64,000 nucleotides of DNA from Hoyosella subflava DQS3-9A1 (GCF_000214175.1 NC_015564.1:4650001-4714000), one strand, 5' to 3'. Positions 8,666-36,090 are shown, numbered from the stretch's first letter. Notes: generated by a model from the sequence alone, not told the origin. Numbers and translations: made by a program.

Positions 8666-9925
8666 TCACTGACCGATCAGGGCATCAGCTCTTTCCAGTG
8701 AATCGACCACAGTCGGCCAGCGCTCGGCACCGTCCTCGGGTGTCCCCAGCACGCCATCGGGATCAACAAGCACTATCGACGCGTGATCATCTGTCACAAG
8801 TCGGCGAACCAGTTCGAACGTCAGGCGACGCGCTACATCGCTGAAGCCGGTGACGCGGACGAAGTCGAAAATGATCGCGAGGTCCTCTTGTTCGCGTTGC
8901 TCAACCTCGCGCACCACGGCTTCAATACCTGCAAACCGCACTGCACCCTGTAGCTGATAGCACAGCGCAGTGCCGCGAACACCGCTGGCGCGGAACACCG
9001 AGCGGCCTATCGGCGGGGTCTCCATCAAGTGGAGCTCCATGTCCCGGGACAAATGTTCGAATAGTTCGACGCCCCTAACGCTGTTGCCGCGGCTATCCAC
9101 CCTCGGCGAGTAGACGGCGATACCCAACTGGCCAGGCAGGACGCCGATGATGCCGCCAGCGATGCCACTCTTCGCCGGGATTCCAACAGCTGACATCCAG
9201 TCCCCGGCGGCGTCATACATGCCGCAGGTCAGCATCACGCTGAGCACCTGACGCACCGTGGCGCGGCTGAGCAGTCGGTCCCCAGAGATGGGCTGCAGGC
9301 CACCATTCGCGAACGTCGCAGCCATCAGCGACAGATCACGCGTCGTCACCGAGAAGGCACACTGCCAGGTATAGCCGCGCACCACTTCGGCTGGTTCTTC
9401 CTCGAGCACGTCAACTGTGCGCAGCATATGCCCGATCGCGAGGTTGCGATGCGCCACGTTGTGCTCCGACTCATCAAAGCTAAGTTCCCGGCCCGCAAGC
9501 TGACTGTAGTGCTGCCGGATTCGGGCTGTCCGCTCGTCGCAATCGGCACCGGAAACGAGAGCATGTGCGGCTATCGCACCTGCATTGATCATCGCGTTAA
9601 ATGGGCGTCCGGTCGAGGGCTCCAGAGAGATCTCGTTGAACGCATCGCCTGACGGTTCGACACCGATCTTGCGATGTACTGCGTCCTCTCCCGAATCCTC
9701 GAGCGCGAGTCCGTAGGTAAAGGGTTTGGACATCGACTCGATAGGAAAGTGGTTGTCGGCGTCACCGGCGCAATACGTCGCGCCCTCGACCGTGGTTATT
9801 GCGATCGCCAGTTGGTCAGGGTCGCACTCGGGGGCATTCCGGTACGCATCTTTCACCTCACCACTGTGGTCAGGCGCGTAGCGCTTGAGAACGTGCTCGA
9901 GATAGTCAGGCACCGGAGACTTCAT
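8666..9925 (-). CDS. glsA: Glutaminase A with C-terminal STAS domain
   Basis: The protein is 419 aa. Residues 1-300 are a serine-dependent beta-lactamase-like glutaminase with the S64-M-S-K67 catalytic motif (PIESMSKPF), NAMINAGAI, and a glycine-rich block before GVLPGQLGIAVYSPR. It hydrolyses glutamine to glutamate and ammonia. Residues from about 315 form a STAS domain (LAIIFDFVRVTGFSDVARR), as in other actinobacterial glutaminases. STAS domains usually mediate partner or nucleotide binding, so activity may be controlled through it. The gene is divergent from the OhrR-like regulator at 10147, and the shared 220-bp spacer contains a strong palindrome. Confidence 0.92.
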   Translation of the reverse strand: MKSPVPDYLEHVLKRYAPDHSGEVKDAYRNAPECDPDQLAIAITTVEGATYCAGDADNHFPIESMSKPFTYGLALEDSGEDAVHRKIGVEPSGDAFNEISLEPSTGRPFNAMINAGAIAAHALVSGADCDERTARIRQHYSQLAGRELSFDESEHNVAHRNLAIGHMLRTVDVLEEEPAEVVRGYTWQCAFSVTTRDLSLMAATFANGGLQPISGDRLLSRATVRQVLSVMLTCGMYDAAGDWMSAVGIPAKSGIAGGIIGVLPGQLGIAVYSPRVDSRGNSVRGVELFEHLSRDMELHLMETPPIGRSVFRASGVRGTALCYQLQGAVRFAGIEAVVREVEQREQEDLAIIFDFVRVTGFSDVARRLTFELVRRLVTDDHASIVLVDPDGVLGTPEDGAERWPTVVDSLERADALIGQ

Positions 9926-31942: not shown

Positions 31943-32629
31943 ATGTCGGCGAGCACTGGGCACACGTCGGAGGCACACTCACGCGTACGGAGAATCGGCC
32001 TCGTTGAGGATCACGAGTCGGTGGCGATCGGACTCGCTACCATCCTGGCGGATTACCCAGATCTGGAACTTGTGGTCGCGGCCCGCACCGTCCAGAACCT
32101 TCTGGACAAGGAGCAGGACCTCGATCTGGTCGTCCTTGATTTGCGGCTCGGCGACGGGTCCTCGCCAAAAAGCAACGTCAGTACATTGCATTCGCACGGC
32201 CTGAAGGTCCTTGCGTTCACCGGGGCGGAAAATCCCTTCCTAGTACGATCCGCTGCCCGAGCTGGCGTTCTTGGCGTCGTCCGCAAATCCGAGCCGGCTG
32301 CGGCGGTAGTTGATTCCATCCGCTGCGCGGCAGCAGGCGGGCAGGTCGTCACCACCGACTGGGCCGCCGCCATCGATGGTGATCCGCACCTGCCCAACGT
32401 GGGCCTCAGCCCACGCCAGCAGGAAGTGCTGGCGCTGTACGCGTCCGGCGAGAAAGCGACCCGCGTTGCGCACCTCACCGGCCTCGCTGAGCAGACCGTG
32501 TATGACTACCTAGCGCGGATCCGTCAAAAGTACGCGGAGGCGGGTCGGCCTGCGCCGACCAAAACTGATCTTTTCAAGCGGGCGGTCGAAGACGGCTGGC
32601 TGCCCGTACCCGAACATCCCGGCTCGTGA
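31943..32629 (+). CDS. NarL/LuxR-type response regulator
   Basis: The protein is 228 aa. The receiver domain keeps all key residues: E22-D23, phospho-acceptor D66 (LVVLDLRL), T93 and K115. The C-terminal HTH is LSPRQQEVLALYASGEKATRVAHLTGLAEQTVYDYLARIRQKYAEAGRPAPTK. GGGGAGG lies 5 nt before ATG 31943. The cognate kinase gene starts 10 bp downstream. Two further HTH proteins of the same subfamily (35156 and 35479) share the rare tail RxKYxxxGRxAxxKxxLxxRAxxDGL, so the three derive from one another. Confidence 0.92.
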   Translation: MSASTGHTSEAHSRVRRIGLVEDHESVAIGLATILADYPDLELVVAARTVQNLLDKEQDLDLVVLDLRLGDGSSPKSNVSTLHSHGLKVLAFTGAENPFLVRSAARAGVLGVVRKSEPAAAVVDSIRCAAAGGQVVTTDWAAAIDGDPHLPNVGLSPRQQEVLALYASGEKATRVAHLTGLAEQTVYDYLARIRQKYAEAGRPAPTKTDLFKRAVEDGWLPVPEHPGS

Positions 32630-32639
32630 GGATGCTGCC

Positions 32640-33887
32640 GTGTCTACCGCAGTGCTGGCGAAGCCGCACTCTCAGGAACAATCGGCTGCCGCCGAAACCG
32701 AGCCGATAACTCCGGCCGCGTACCACAAGGTCTTCCGCACATTCGCGCTGGTACTGGGCGTCGCTGGTGTTTCCCTAGGCCTGCTCAATCAGCAGCGTGT
32801 GACGCGCGAATTAGAGATCTTGCCGATGTGGTGGAGCATCCCCGCCTTGTCCGCCGTGTTCGCCTCCACCCTTGTCCTCGCTCTGACCGCGTACTTCGCT
32901 CCAATCCGGATTCTGTGCGTCCTGCTCCGCACCATTTCCATCGGTTATGTCCTGGCGCTGATCACGTGGCCACTCGCCTACTCTGGCCCCCCACTCGAGG
33001 ACGACTTTCGCTGCTGGTTATGGTCGGTTAACGCGCTCGCGGCAATGGCAGCCGCCGTCGCCTGGCCACCCCGAATAGCTCTGCCCTACCTGGCGCTGAT
33101 CCCAGCTGGGAGTGTGCTGCTGAACGCGTATGCCGCCGAGCACGCCGAATGGGGCAACGTCATCGAAGACATTGCGATGGCAACGACAGCAGCGACTGTC
33201 TACGTCTCGATGGGCCTGATCGGTCTCAACACAGGCTGGCGGCTGGACGAAATCAAAGCGAGCGCACAAGCACGCGCAGCGAAAGCAGCCGCAACCGCGG
33301 CTCGCAACCAGGAACGTGAACGCATCGACGGGCTGATCCACGATGGCGTGATCTCAACGCTTCTCAACGCTTCACAGGGCGGTGACACTGCGGTGCTAGC
33401 GCGCCAGTCGCGCCGCACTCTCGACCAAATCGACGGGTTGCGCGCCGGCGTAGAGGCAGCGCGGGCCTTCCGCGGCTCTGAAGCAGTCGCGTACTTACGC
33501 TCAGCGGCAATGGACATCTCGGAAGATGTAATCGTCAACCTCGATGCCCCGCGCGAGATGGACAGCTTCACAATCCCCGCGCACGCCGTGCGTGCGATCG
33601 GTGCGGGACTCGCTGAAGCGCTGACCAACAGCATTCGGCACGCCGACGTGCCGGGACGCACGACGCACCGGACAGTGTCAATATCGATGTACCCAGAACG
33701 GTGCCGCGTCTCCGTGCACGACAACGGCAGAGGCTTCGACCCACGGAGCATCCCTGCTGACCGCCTAGGACTCGCGGTGAGTATCCGAGGCAGGATGGCA
33801 CGTGTACCCGGGGGAAGCTCACGAGTCGAAAGCACCCCCGGAGGCGGCACCAACGTCACACTTTTCTGGCGGAGCAGCGATGATTGA
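32640..33887 (+). CDS. Sensor histidine kinase (NarL-partner type)
   Basis: The protein is 415 aa. A roughly 25-residue cytoplasmic leader is followed by six transmembrane helices (about 33-205) without a large external domain, so the signal is probably sensed in or near the membrane. A coiled linker leads to the phospho-accepting RERIDGLIHDGV with His234, and the ATPase domain has N-box GLAEALTNSIRHAD and G1 VHDNGRGFDP. It starts with GTG 32640, 10 bp after the response regulator. Its last 8 bp overlap the start of the kinase-like gene. Confidence 0.92.
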   Translation: MSTAVLAKPHSQEQSAAAETEPITPAAYHKVFRTFALVLGVAGVSLGLLNQQRVTRELEILPMWWSIPALSAVFASTLVLALTAYFAPIRILCVLLRTISIGYVLALITWPLAYSGPPLEDDFRCWLWSVNALAAMAAAVAWPPRIALPYLALIPAGSVLLNAYAAEHAEWGNVIEDIAMATTAATVYVSMGLIGLNTGWRLDEIKASAQARAAKAAATAARNQERERIDGLIHDGVISTLLNASQGGDTAVLARQSRRTLDQIDGLRAGVEAARAFRGSEAVAYLRSAAMDISEDVIVNLDAPREMDSFTIPAHAVRAIGAGLAEALTNSIRHADVPGRTTHRTVSISMYPERCRVSVHDNGRGFDPRSIPADRLGLAVSIRGRMARVPGGSSRVESTPGGGTNVTLFWRSSDD

Positions 33888-34941
33888 CAGCCCATTCCGC
33901 CACCGTGATATCCCCGCCATCTTGGGTCTTCGCAGCTCAGCAGCGTGGATTGTGGTCGTGTTCGTGGTGGCGGCATACGTCATCGTCGCCGCCCGCAGTT
34001 CCAGCGGCCTCGAATATCCCGTCGTCGCAGCAGTGGCTATCACGGCGATCGCGCTCGGCGGCTTCGCCATCGTATTCGCCAAGAGCGACCCGTTGCCTCT
34101 GCGCGCTGCGCTACCGCTTGGCGCCATCGCTCCGGTGCTGGCACTGCTTTTCTCGTTTCAGTTAACGCCGGGAGAGTTCCCGCATAACGCCACCTGGTAC
34201 GTCAACGCTGTGACCTTCATCGTGTGTTTCACCGCACTGCGGGGACGGATCCTGATTGCGTGGATCAGCATGGGCATGATGGCTGTTGTGCTGACGTGGT
34301 GGGGGCTCAGCCACGGTGAGGGGCTAGCGTTCGGGTTCTGGCGCACCGCATTCTCAGCCAACCTGCTACTACTCGCGACAATCCTCGCATTCACGATGCG
34401 GCCCGTCGCGCGGACGGTATTCGCGCTGCAAGAGGGGGCGCTGCAGCGAGCTGCGGAACAAGCATCGACAACCGCGATACTCGAGGAGCGCGACCAGCGG
34501 CTGCAGCGTCTCAATGAGCTTGTCCGCCCACTCCTCGAACTCATCGCGTCAGGCACGGAGCTCACTGCGGCCGAGCGAGAAGAGTGCAGGTTGATCGAAG
34601 GCCAGCTGCGGGACTCGCTCCGGGCGAGGGCACTCGCCGTCGCTCCCATCCAGGAATCAGCGAAGCACGCCAGGCAGCGCGGGGTCGACGTCGTCCTGCT
34701 CGATGACGGTGGTCTTACCGGAGCCAGCGCCGAAATTGTGTCCCGGGTGCGCAAAGCGATCAGTTCAGTTCTCGACGACGCGCTGAACGGCCGGGTCACG
34801 GCCCGGGTATTGCCGAATGGGCGCGACGTATTGGCGACGATTCTCAGTACAAGCAACGATTTCACAACAAGAATCACAATTAACAGACACGGCGAAACAG
34901 AGTGGAGCCGTGAACCGACCCGCGTCTCTCCAACATTGTGA
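33880..34941 (+). CDS. Degenerate sensor-kinase-like membrane protein
   Basis: The protein is 353 aa. It has five to six transmembrane helices and a coiled region (about 195-250, TTAILEERDQRLQRLNELVRPLLELIA), laid out like the kinase upstream. No phospho-accepting histidine motif is present, and the C-terminal region lacks N-box and G-box motifs. It therefore looks like a catalytically dead kinase paralogue. The 8-bp overlap with the kinase gene implies co-translation and a possible heteromer. I do not recognise it as a named family. Confidence 0.8.
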   Translation: MIDSPFRHRDIPAILGLRSSAAWIVVVFVVAAYVIVAARSSSGLEYPVVAAVAITAIALGGFAIVFAKSDPLPLRAALPLGAIAPVLALLFSFQLTPGEFPHNATWYVNAVTFIVCFTALRGRILIAWISMGMMAVVLTWWGLSHGEGLAFGFWRTAFSANLLLLATILAFTMRPVARTVFALQEGALQRAAEQASTTAILEERDQRLQRLNELVRPLLELIASGTELTAAEREECRLIEGQLRDSLRARALAVAPIQESAKHARQRGVDVVLLDDGGLTGASAEIVSRVRKAISSVLDDALNGRVTARVLPNGRDVLATILSTSNDFTTRITINRHGETEWSREPTRVSPTL

Positions 34942-35022
34942 CCAGGAGACCACACGGAGAATTTGATCGGCCGGCGATCAAAACTAATCGCAACAATGCG
35001 TCCCATAAACGCCCTGGATGTT

Positions 35023-35054
35023 GCCCCTAGTTTTAGGGGCACTAGAACTAGGGG
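35023..35054. promoter_or_regulatory. Alternative stem-loops of CCCCTA half-sites
   Basis: GCCCCTA (35023-35029) pairs with TAGGGGC (35034-35040), giving a 7-bp stem with a 4-nt loop. The same left arm, as CCCCTAGTT (35024-35032), also pairs perfectly with AACTAGGGG (35046-35054). The two folds exclude each other. It lies in the 214-bp spacer between the kinase-like gene and the free HTH gene; it is a candidate operator of the LuxR-type proteins or an attenuator. Confidence 0.65.
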
Positions 35055-35155
35055 ATTTCCAACTAATCGGACATCGCCTAATGTTTGGCATTATCGGAGG
35101 CGGGTACTGCCCTCACTCCGGCAAGACTGACAACACAGAAGTGAGGTCCGATCTC

Positions 35156-35482
35156 ATGAGTGCCCCATCACCTCTGCATCCTCAGCACGAGGCCGGCCAG
35201 GCTCGCACGGTTGAGCCCGCCCTTCGGCACCTCGCACTCGTCCGCTCAGCCCGAAATCGCCCCGCACTGTCCCCCCGCGAAATCGAAGTTCTGCGCGCCT
35301 GGTTCGCAAGCGATTCGAAAACCACGGTGGCCAGTAATCTTTCAGTTTCCCTCGGTACAGTGAACACCCACCTTGCGCGCGTTCGCTCGAAGTACGCAGC
35401 GGTTGGCCGCACCGCGCCCACGAAGGCCGCGCTTGTAGCCCGCGCCCTCCAGGATGGACTCGTCCAGCTCGAGGAACTCTAG
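35156..35482 (+). CDS. Stand-alone LuxR-type HTH protein
   Basis: The protein is 108 aa. A 30-residue polar leader is followed by a NarL/LuxR HTH: LSPREIEVLRAWFASDSKTTVASNLSVSLGTVNTHLARVRSKYAAVGRTAPTK. No receiver domain is present, so it cannot be phosphorylated in the usual way. It is a sibling of the HTH domains at 32400-32600 and 35500-35700. The last 4 bp overlap the stop of the convergent pseudo-receiver gene. Start at ATG 35156, with GTG 35141 possible. Confidence 0.88.
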   Translation: MSAPSPLHPQHEAGQARTVEPALRHLALVRSARNRPALSPREIEVLRAWFASDSKTTVASNLSVSLGTVNTHLARVRSKYAAVGRTAPTKAALVARALQDGLVQLEEL

Positions 35483-36090
35483 ACGGACGACCAGTGGTTG
35501 CGGCATGGACACGGAATAAGCCCGTCTTCCAGCGCGCATCGCAGCAGGCCCACCTTCCCTTCAGCAGCGCGACCAGCAGAAATGTACTTTGCTCGCGCCC
35601 TGTCGAGGTGCGTGGACACCGTGGTGGGGGCAACGCCAAGTTCCGCAGCAACTTCGCGCACTGTCATGCCCATTGTGTACGCGATAACCGCATCCTTCTC
35701 TCGCGCGGAAAGTTGCGGCGCAGGCCGCGCAAATCCATCGTCCGCTGGTCCGATCAACCGCTCTACGGTTGAAACGACAGTCTTTGTATCGATTGCATAG
35801 TGCAGCCACGCCGCATCTGGTACTGCAGTTGCCATCTCGGGGTCTCGCGCACCCAAAACGACCACCGGTGCGTCGCGGGGTGCCAGCACCCGGAAACGGT
35901 CCGCGTCACGCCCTGCACCGACTGTGCGGTAGATGACGAGGTCGAATGTCGATGATCCGTTTCCCGCGCCTACTTGTGCGGCCCGGTATCCGCGTTCCCT
36001 CAGCAGTGCTGCCAGCGCGTCATCCAGGAAATCGCCGCGTCCCACGATTCCGATCCACTTGCCCACTGCTGCCGCCTCGACAAGCCTCAC
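35479..36090 (-). CDS. LuxR-type regulator with degenerate receiver
   Basis: The protein is 203 aa. The N-terminal domain has receiver-like strand pattern (WIGIVGRGDFLDDALAALL, DLVIYRTV, APVVVLGARD), but the acidic pair, the phospho-acceptor Asp and the conserved Lys are all missing. The C-terminal HTH is LSAREKDAVIAYTMGMTVREVAAELGVAPTTVSTHLDRARAKYISAGRA. It should act without phosphorylation, perhaps by dimer mixing with the true response regulator or by ligand binding. The GTG start at 36090 has GAGGAA close upstream. It faces the stand-alone HTH gene tail to tail. Confidence 0.85.
   Translation of the reverse strand: MRLVEAAAVGKWIGIVGRGDFLDDALAALLRERGYRAAQVGAGNGSSTFDLVIYRTVGAGRDADRFRVLAPRDAPVVVLGARDPEMATAVPDAAWLHYAIDTKTVVSTVERLIGPADDGFARPAPQLSAREKDAVIAYTMGMTVREVAAELGVAPTTVSTHLDRARAKYISAGRAAEGKVGLLRCALEDGLIPCPCRNHWSSV

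Follow-up and report, generated by a model that had tools for sequence, protein, structure and literature searches.

A conserved kinase-like companion without catalytic residues accompanies a sensor histidine kinase of Hoyosella subflava and is probably one half of an asymmetric kinase

Background

According to textbooks histidine kinases (HKs) are homodimers, and known natural examples of heterodimers are scarce; the pseudo-histidine kinase DivL, which acts on CckA, and RetS, which acts on GacS, are unlinked, full-size regulators. Here we describe a locus of Hoyosella subflava DQS3-9A1 that occupies positions 31943 to 36090 of a 64-kb stretch of DNA (hereafter the window; GCF_000214175.1 NC_015564.1:4650001-4714000, or G000:C3:4650001-4714000 in our genome set). 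An intact response regulator (RR) and sensor HK are followed there by a membrane protein that resembles a kinase stripped of its catalytic residues (the companion) and by two further proteins with helix-turn-helix (HTH) domains, and we argue that kinase and companion are probably two unequal halves of one obligate asymmetric sensor kinase.

In group A Streptococcus two sensor-kinase-like proteins, FasB and FasC, serve one RR, FasA, and form a heterodimer in two-hybrid assays; one partner has been put forward as a pseudokinase that can do without its catalytic and ATP-binding (CA) domain, and FasB is proposed to phosphorylate His246 of FasC (PMC12675982). An actinobacterial case is a pseudokinase version of Corynebacterium glutamicum ChrS that is reported to affect a two-component system (PMC9491836). 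Duplication and fusion gave rise to the mammalian membrane adenylyl cyclases, which are pseudo-heterodimers (PMC9552081), and the anchor of a cyclase can be swapped for a six-helix kinase receptor (PMC4821796). BldM/WhiI and CmrT/CmrR include atypical or pseudo-receiver regulators (PMC4125116, PMC12632262). We found no description of the kinase-companion family in the open-access literature.

Results and Discussion

The kinase and its companion

The RR gene (31943..32629, + strand) encodes 228 amino acids with a receiver (Response_reg, E 1.5e-7), whose acceptor Asp is D66 (codon 32138-32140), and a GerE HTH (E 1.6e-6), the make-up of a NarL/LuxR-type (NarL/FixJ) response regulator; it is 76-98% identical to its relatives in Hoyosella and the sister genus. 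The HK gene (32640..33887, +) encodes 415 amino acids with a multi-helix membrane part, the phospho-acceptor pair H234-D235 of the H-box (H234 codon, 33339-33341) and an HATPase_c domain (PF02518, E 6e-10) that carries the N- and G-boxes (N330; DxGxG at 361-365). Among kinase relatives at the same loci the His is kept in 92/96, the N-box Asn in 95/95 and DxGxG in 93/93. No model of the dimerisation and histidine phosphotransfer (DHp) domain, HisKA_3 included, matches the HK at E values up to 1; the DesK DHp-CA region aligns in the fused model discussed below.

The companion gene (33880..34941, +) encodes 353 amino acids, with a six-helix membrane part, DHp-like helices and a CA-like domain that is devoid of an ATP lid. 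Its ATG at 33880 opens an 8-bp overlap with the HK gene (33880..33887, +), which likely couples their translation; annotated HK and companion genes on plasmids overlap as well, by 1-4 bp. In the companion Arg216-Pro217 (34525-34530) replaces the His-Asp pair, and the N-box and D-box are gone. Across 95 companion sequences the phospho-His column holds Arg in 62 and Val, Leu, Gly, Thr or others in the rest, with no His among the residues listed, and the next residue is Pro in 90. The companion has no match at a meaningful level in Pfam or NCBIfam, and a Pfam scan of 66 family members gave nothing beyond noise, none of the 66 matching any HATPase model. A first-pass annotation of this DNA, made from the sequence alone, had proposed five open reading frames (ORFs) at 31943-36090, among them an intact RR (D66) and kinase (H234), both of which Pfam matches, a kinase-like membrane protein without the His and ATP-binding boxes, and an 8-bp overlap between the two kinase-like genes; all of these descriptions hold, the overlap to the base.

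Profile comparison places the companion in common ancestry with kinases: its profile matches them over the membrane and DHp parts (E 4.6e-12), and hhalign pairs the membrane halves of the two families with a probability of 83, shuffled columns reaching at most 0.1. Iteration made the companion profile drift (from 105 to 183 ORFs), and single-round profiles were therefore used instead. Sequence and model together support an origin of the companion by duplication of a kinase gene followed by loss of catalysis.

Missing catalytic boxes would also be expected of a decaying fragment, and the first-pass annotation had pointed to a gene broken in close relatives as the finding that would undo its own reading. 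No such breakage was seen; the gene is conserved and intact, with nearly 100 homologues that share invariant residues, and its ratio of non-synonymous to synonymous substitution rates (dN/dS) within Hoyosella is 0.06-0.10, so that decay was ruled out and its probability is, in our judgement, practically nil. The same ratio is 0.03-0.07 for all five genes of the locus against H. altamirensis and 0.03-0.14 for the first four against the genome G317, where synonymous sites are near saturation and the fifth gene could not be scored; with values this low none of the genes resembles one in decay, and purifying selection is indicated.

Pairing, fusion and spread

Two more kinase-companion pairs are encoded in the own genome, which brings the total to three; their genes also overlap and their companions are 35% identical to that of the window. 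The copy of H. altamirensis DSM 45258 (locus L033) is 98% identical to the window companion. A scan of named genomes gave 67 companion loci, in Rhodococcus, Nocardia, Tsukamurella, Gordonia, Antrihabitans and Lolliginicoccus, in Demequina, Cryobacterium, Microbacterium, Nocardioides and Actinomyces, and in others. In even draws of genomes the companion was present in 18/299 of the order and 43/394 of the class.

Eighty-five companion loci with enough flanking sequence could be scored. At 59 of them a separate kinase gene lies directly upstream on the same strand and at 24 the companion is fused to the kinase; a divergent fused protein (L097) and a fragment (L141) account for the other two. An RR gene is nearby on the same strand in 66/85. 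When 27 genomes were searched with both profiles and positions were matched by eye, the 38 full-length separate kinases (E <= about 2e-84) each lay beside a companion and the next two were fused, so that 40 kinases of the companion-linked type match 40 companions one to one. The seven genomes that lack the companion have no kinase of this type either. One sister genus has weaker kinases (E about 1e-44 and above) without a companion, and the one-to-one rule is thus limited to this kinase family. An ordinary HK-RR pair with chance neighbours was considered and rejected.

Fused forms make up 28 of the 98 companions found; in them the kinase profile and then the companion profile match in one frame of mostly 700-900 residues, and no cyclase domain was found in 27 fused members. 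The companion tree requires five changes between fused and separate states, of which at least three are forced by well-supported branches, and fused forms occur in Nocardia wallacei, Cryobacterium, a Microbacterium-Nocardioides group and the Mycobacteriales genus g7. Repeated fusion of this kind counts as classic evidence of a physical complex, which kinase and companion would form. A different arrangement is conceivable: the kinase would form homodimers in the ordinary way, and the companion, as a separate membrane homodimer, would touch and tune it, like LiaF or RocA. The genes are indeed separate at most loci, the companion has a membrane bundle and stalk of its own, and all catalytic residues are on the kinase alone; however, the recurrent in-frame fusion, the strict one-to-one presence, the homology of the companion to the dimerising part of the kinase and a fused model that packs both bundles as a pseudo-dimer all speak for a closer union, and we regard an accessory sensor of this sort as distinctly unlikely.

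The companion was also found on 12 plasmids of Rhodococcus, Gordonia and Pseudarthrobacter, and is annotated as hypothetical in all 12 records. At all five plasmid loci inspected an ATP-binding protein (the kinase) is encoded directly 5' of it, and at four of the five a LuxR-type, response or sigma-like HTH regulator gene precedes the kinase gene; Gordonia plasmid pG135 has the order RR-HK-companion-HTH. These loci (L200-L204) are on linear and circular plasmids and in one case adjoin conjugation genes, and the module is therefore mobile. On the plasmid of L202 an HTH-only gene (about 8913-9220) is not in the gene table.

Several other loci deserve mention. The companion on a contig labelled as an Acidobacteriaceae metagenome-assembled genome (L057) groups with those of Tsukamurella, and the contig is probably mis-binned. 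Companion fragments without a kinase, one of them with an internal stop, are found at G160:C36:26478-26837, G345:C1:433056-433418 and G357:C1:632998-633207, and are probably remnants of lost pairs. In L083 and L092 the fused gene is followed by genes for exported proteins of small size, whose signal sequence is of the GSLAYW type and which are possible targets of the system; exported proteins 3' of companions number 18/86 against a background of 75/728, which is too noisy to use.

Predicted structures

In the companion model (mean predicted local distance difference test, pLDDT, 91) six membrane helices are followed by a long stalk, which continues into the first of two DHp-like helices; a small alpha/beta domain comes last. 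Residues 249-337 of this domain align with the CA domains of DosS, DesK, AgrC and PhoQ over about 84-90 residues (Z 6-7, which is under the tool's caution level; root-mean-square deviation 2.6-3.1 A), and the structures in the PDB list that cover this segment are kinase CA domains. The ATP-lid segment, which in the kinase half of the fused model includes the helix that links main strands two and three, is absent from the companion. A PDB sequence search with the companion profile gave nothing significant, and Foldseek with the companion model no match at E 0.001.

The fused protein of Nocardia wallacei (791 amino acids) was modelled with AlphaFold (pLDDT 79; predicted template modelling score, pTM, 0.67). 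Its ten best PDB matches are the membrane adenylyl cyclases AC5, AC8 and AC9 (Z 17.8-21.4), with 339-408 residues aligned that span both membrane bundles and both stalks, and its kinase half matches the CA domains of VraS, DesK and DosS (Z 13-15). Since the cyclase scores are well above the level of about 13 at which the tool warns of helical bundles, the two six-helix bundles are taken to pack side by side in the model as a pseudo-dimer; that is the predicted state of a fused homologue, whose counterpart in the window would be built from two chains.

An asymmetric sensor kinase

We consider it probable that kinase and companion are two unequal halves of one obligate asymmetric sensor kinase. 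In the course of events that we envisage, a kinase gene was duplicated and one copy kept its membrane bundle and dimerisation helices and lost the His, the ATP lid and both the N-box and the D-box. The two halves, two chains in the window and one where they are fused, would form a complex, as fusion and one-to-one co-occurrence suggest, with the two six-helix bundles adjacent, as in the fused model, and perhaps sensing a membrane-near signal. The kinase half would supply both His and ATP site; if the active form is a heterodimer, the sole His and the sole ATP site are on one chain and autophosphorylation would therefore proceed in cis, while the companion would either hold the active conformation in place or let it go. 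The phosphoryl group would then pass to D66 of the RR by ordinary two-component chemistry.

Several points weigh against this picture. The contact between kinase and companion is deduced from fusion and co-occurrence, and the activity of the pair is presumed. The cytoplasmic halves of kinase and companion are paired by hhalign with a probability of only 34-51 (shuffled columns, at most 0.7), and the CA-like scores of Z 6-7 taken alone might reflect a common arrangement. The fused model was built on just 27 sequences, and a single-chain model is compatible also with kinase-kinase and companion-companion pairing. The binder of the dyad described below is putative. Last, the companion motifs LRDxxR (243-248) and ARxRGVxVxLLDD (264-276) and residues R309, P312 and R315 are invariant or nearly so, and the charged residues among them (R244, D245, R248, R265, D275, D276, R309 and R315) may form a ligand site or have another role.

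This last point could be taken further: on its inherited CA fold the companion might have acquired a new function, the binding of a ligand or a protein, with these residues as the site and kinase asymmetry as a secondary matter. It is true that LRDxxR, ARxRGVxVxLLDD and RxLPxGR are more conserved than the companion's membrane part. Yet the same residues could form the interface with the kinase, and no ligand-binding fold stood out in the PDB comparisons of the companion, so that we think such a change of function rather improbable.

If the two-halves reading is true, an asymmetric kinase has been fixed by evolution in many genera, including inseparable single-chain forms. It would be a natural system in which to study the share of each half of a kinase dimer, the sufficiency of cis phosphorylation and signalling through six-helix bundles, the last an open question for adenylyl cyclases too, and a frequent hypothetical protein without a Pfam or NCBIfam model would become a testable signalling subunit.

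The HTH-only gene and its upstream dyad

The gene 3' of the companion (35156..35482, +) encodes a LuxR/GerE protein of 108 amino acids (GerE, E 2.9e-9) that is an HTH domain alone, as the first-pass annotation had recognised. Such a gene lies beside the RR/HK/companion trio in 18/85 loci, in Mycobacteriales only (the 18 sequences were aligned), and in three kinds of position: it can follow the companion, separate RR from HK, or lie upstream in divergent orientation. We conclude that it is a second member of the module, and that the conserved core consists of three genes (RR, HK and pseudo-kinase), sometimes four with the HTH-only protein.

A 20-bp dyad, TGCCCCTAGTTTTAGGGGCA (35022..35041), precedes the HTH-only gene, and a second inverted repeat, CCCCTAGTTTTAG / CTAGAACTAGGGG (35024..35054), overlaps it. 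The dyad recurs 5' of the HTH-only gene in H. altamirensis, G317, H. rhizosphaerae, Rhodococcus sp. HM1, G251 and G290 (it is conserved in loci L122, L127, L133, L042 and L135), with 0-2 mismatches to the consensus where 0/200 shuffled controls were equally good, and in a weak version in R. hoagii. It accompanies the HTH-only gene also where this sits elsewhere in the operon, and is nearly unique across whole genomes. Tsukamurella, genus g5 and the own-genome paralogue have HTH-only genes that lack it. Genomes of Hoyosella and the sister genus each contain 2-4 sites of the strict palindrome GCCCCnAnnnnTnGGGGC (reversed control, 0 sites), which in genomes outside these shows no excess over the control level. 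Its conservation makes the dyad a probable operator. In sister-genus genomes that have RR and fifth gene, and lack HK, companion and HTH-only gene at the locus, palindrome sites persist, a pattern that would fit binding by the RR or by the fifth protein better. In the two-halves reading the RR, or else the HTH-only protein, would act on the dyad, and the HTH-only gene would form a second output layer.

An earlier operator candidate, CTAGTT...AACTAG, is not enriched in genomes and was therefore dropped for the TGCCC-N10-GGGCA dyad, and a regulon guess by gene-neighbour clustering returned mostly wrong-frame ORFs and clade synteny. The palindrome GCCCCTAnnnnTAGGGGC is found just 5' of a TetR-type gene at G000:C3:4170606-4170623 (L179) and G345:C5:118624 (L181) and is thus kept across two genera. 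Palindromes at G000:C3:2910056 and 2914151 (L169, L174; L100:103-993) lie 5-10 kb from a second kinase-companion pair, and have as neighbours an RR with the same type of HTH tail, a small membrane protein and a DUF7937/LRV_2 protein. Closely 3' of the TGCCCC box, L039, L042, L133, L135 and L204 share another conserved element, CCGTCTCGGC, which may belong to a promoter read by an alternative sigma factor.

The fifth gene and the surrounding genes

The fifth gene (35479..36090, -) is convergent to the HTH-only gene, which it overlaps by 4 bp at their stops, and encodes a GerE-type regulator of 203 amino acids (GerE HTH, E 6e-7 in Pfam) with an N-terminal domain of unproven receiver ancestry. 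The first-pass annotation took it for a regulator with a dead receiver, and the acceptor Asp, acidic pair and Lys of receivers are indeed absent from all its orthologues; however, its N-terminal half has no Response_reg match in Pfam and an hhalign probability of 6.8 against receivers, so that a receiver origin is unsupported. Searches returned close orthologues of full length from Hoyosella and the sister genus g94 alone (97, 73 and 47-54% identity), either convergent to the HTH gene or directly adjoining the RR. Genus g5 has analogous HTH proteins after the companion, and their N-termini are of other kinds. In L124, L125 and L126 (genomes G333, G315 and G345) the RR and the fifth-gene orthologue are adjacent and convergent, the HK, companion and HTH-only genes between them being missing; the RR has outlived its kinase at that locus.

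The proposal that all five genes form one module, in which a dead kinase and a dead regulator both modulate a complete pair, gains from their joint presence in H. altamirensis, G317 and H. rhizosphaerae and from the adjacency of RR and fifth gene even in L124-L126. Wider comparison bears out part of it, the companion always being found with a kinase and the HTH-only gene recurring, but not a fixed set of five: the RR is present in 66/85 loci, the HTH-only gene in 18/85 (Mycobacteriales) and the fifth gene is absent beyond Hoyosella and the sister genus, the receiver ancestry of its product is unsupported, and the pseudo-kinase, a conserved partner as proposed, looks like an obligate half rather than an added tuner. 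A five-gene tuning module is thus, on balance, unlikely. The shared RxKY...GRxA...DGL tail of the three HTH domains, thought uncommon, reads DGW in the RR and has about 150 listed matches in the bacterial family, and is therefore no rare tag.

Upstream in the window are genes that we take, from their translations, to be dnaB, ssb together with genes for ribosomal proteins, and one for a GT87-like membrane protein; the downstream neighbour is presumably a proline dehydrogenase-like gene.

Comparison with known systems

The family model closest to the window HK is that of the MacS kinases, the best NCBIfam match (NF047322, E 1e-18), yet at 67.6 bits the HK is far under the family cut-off of 300. 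The pair is like FasBC in that two kinase-like partners serve one RR. The two differ in family and RR type and, above all, in the division of labour: FasC has the His and FasB the CA domain, with a proposed reaction in trans, whereas here the active kinase holds both sites and the pseudokinase partner has no His, which sets the window kinase apart from the trans reaction proposed for FasBC. DivL and RetS resemble the companion as kinase-like proteins that control a true kinase, but the companion is operonic, present one to one with its kinase and repeatedly fused to it. The ChrS version is reportedly a pseudokinase form of ChrS itself and not a separate conserved gene family beside a kinase. 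BldM/WhiI and CmrT/CmrR are models for pairing of the HTH-only or fifth protein with the RR, although unlike them the HTH-only protein has no receiver and that of the fifth protein is unproven. The companion pseudo-kinase is best read as a new variant among the rare heterodimeric kinases.

Adenylyl cyclases and Rv1625c share with the fused kinase-companion protein two six-helix bundles, long stalks and two diverged halves; they differ in output, which is a cyclase there and a kinase here, and the likeness of the membrane parts is architectural rather than demonstrated common ancestry (best sequence match, E 0.016). There is about an even chance that these actinobacterial proteins are an unrecognised family of asymmetric kinases whose history mirrors that of the cyclases: a duplication, the catalytic death of one copy, and more than one fusion to a single chain with twelve helices, a pseudo-heterodimer that would act in cis only and sense through the interface of its bundles.

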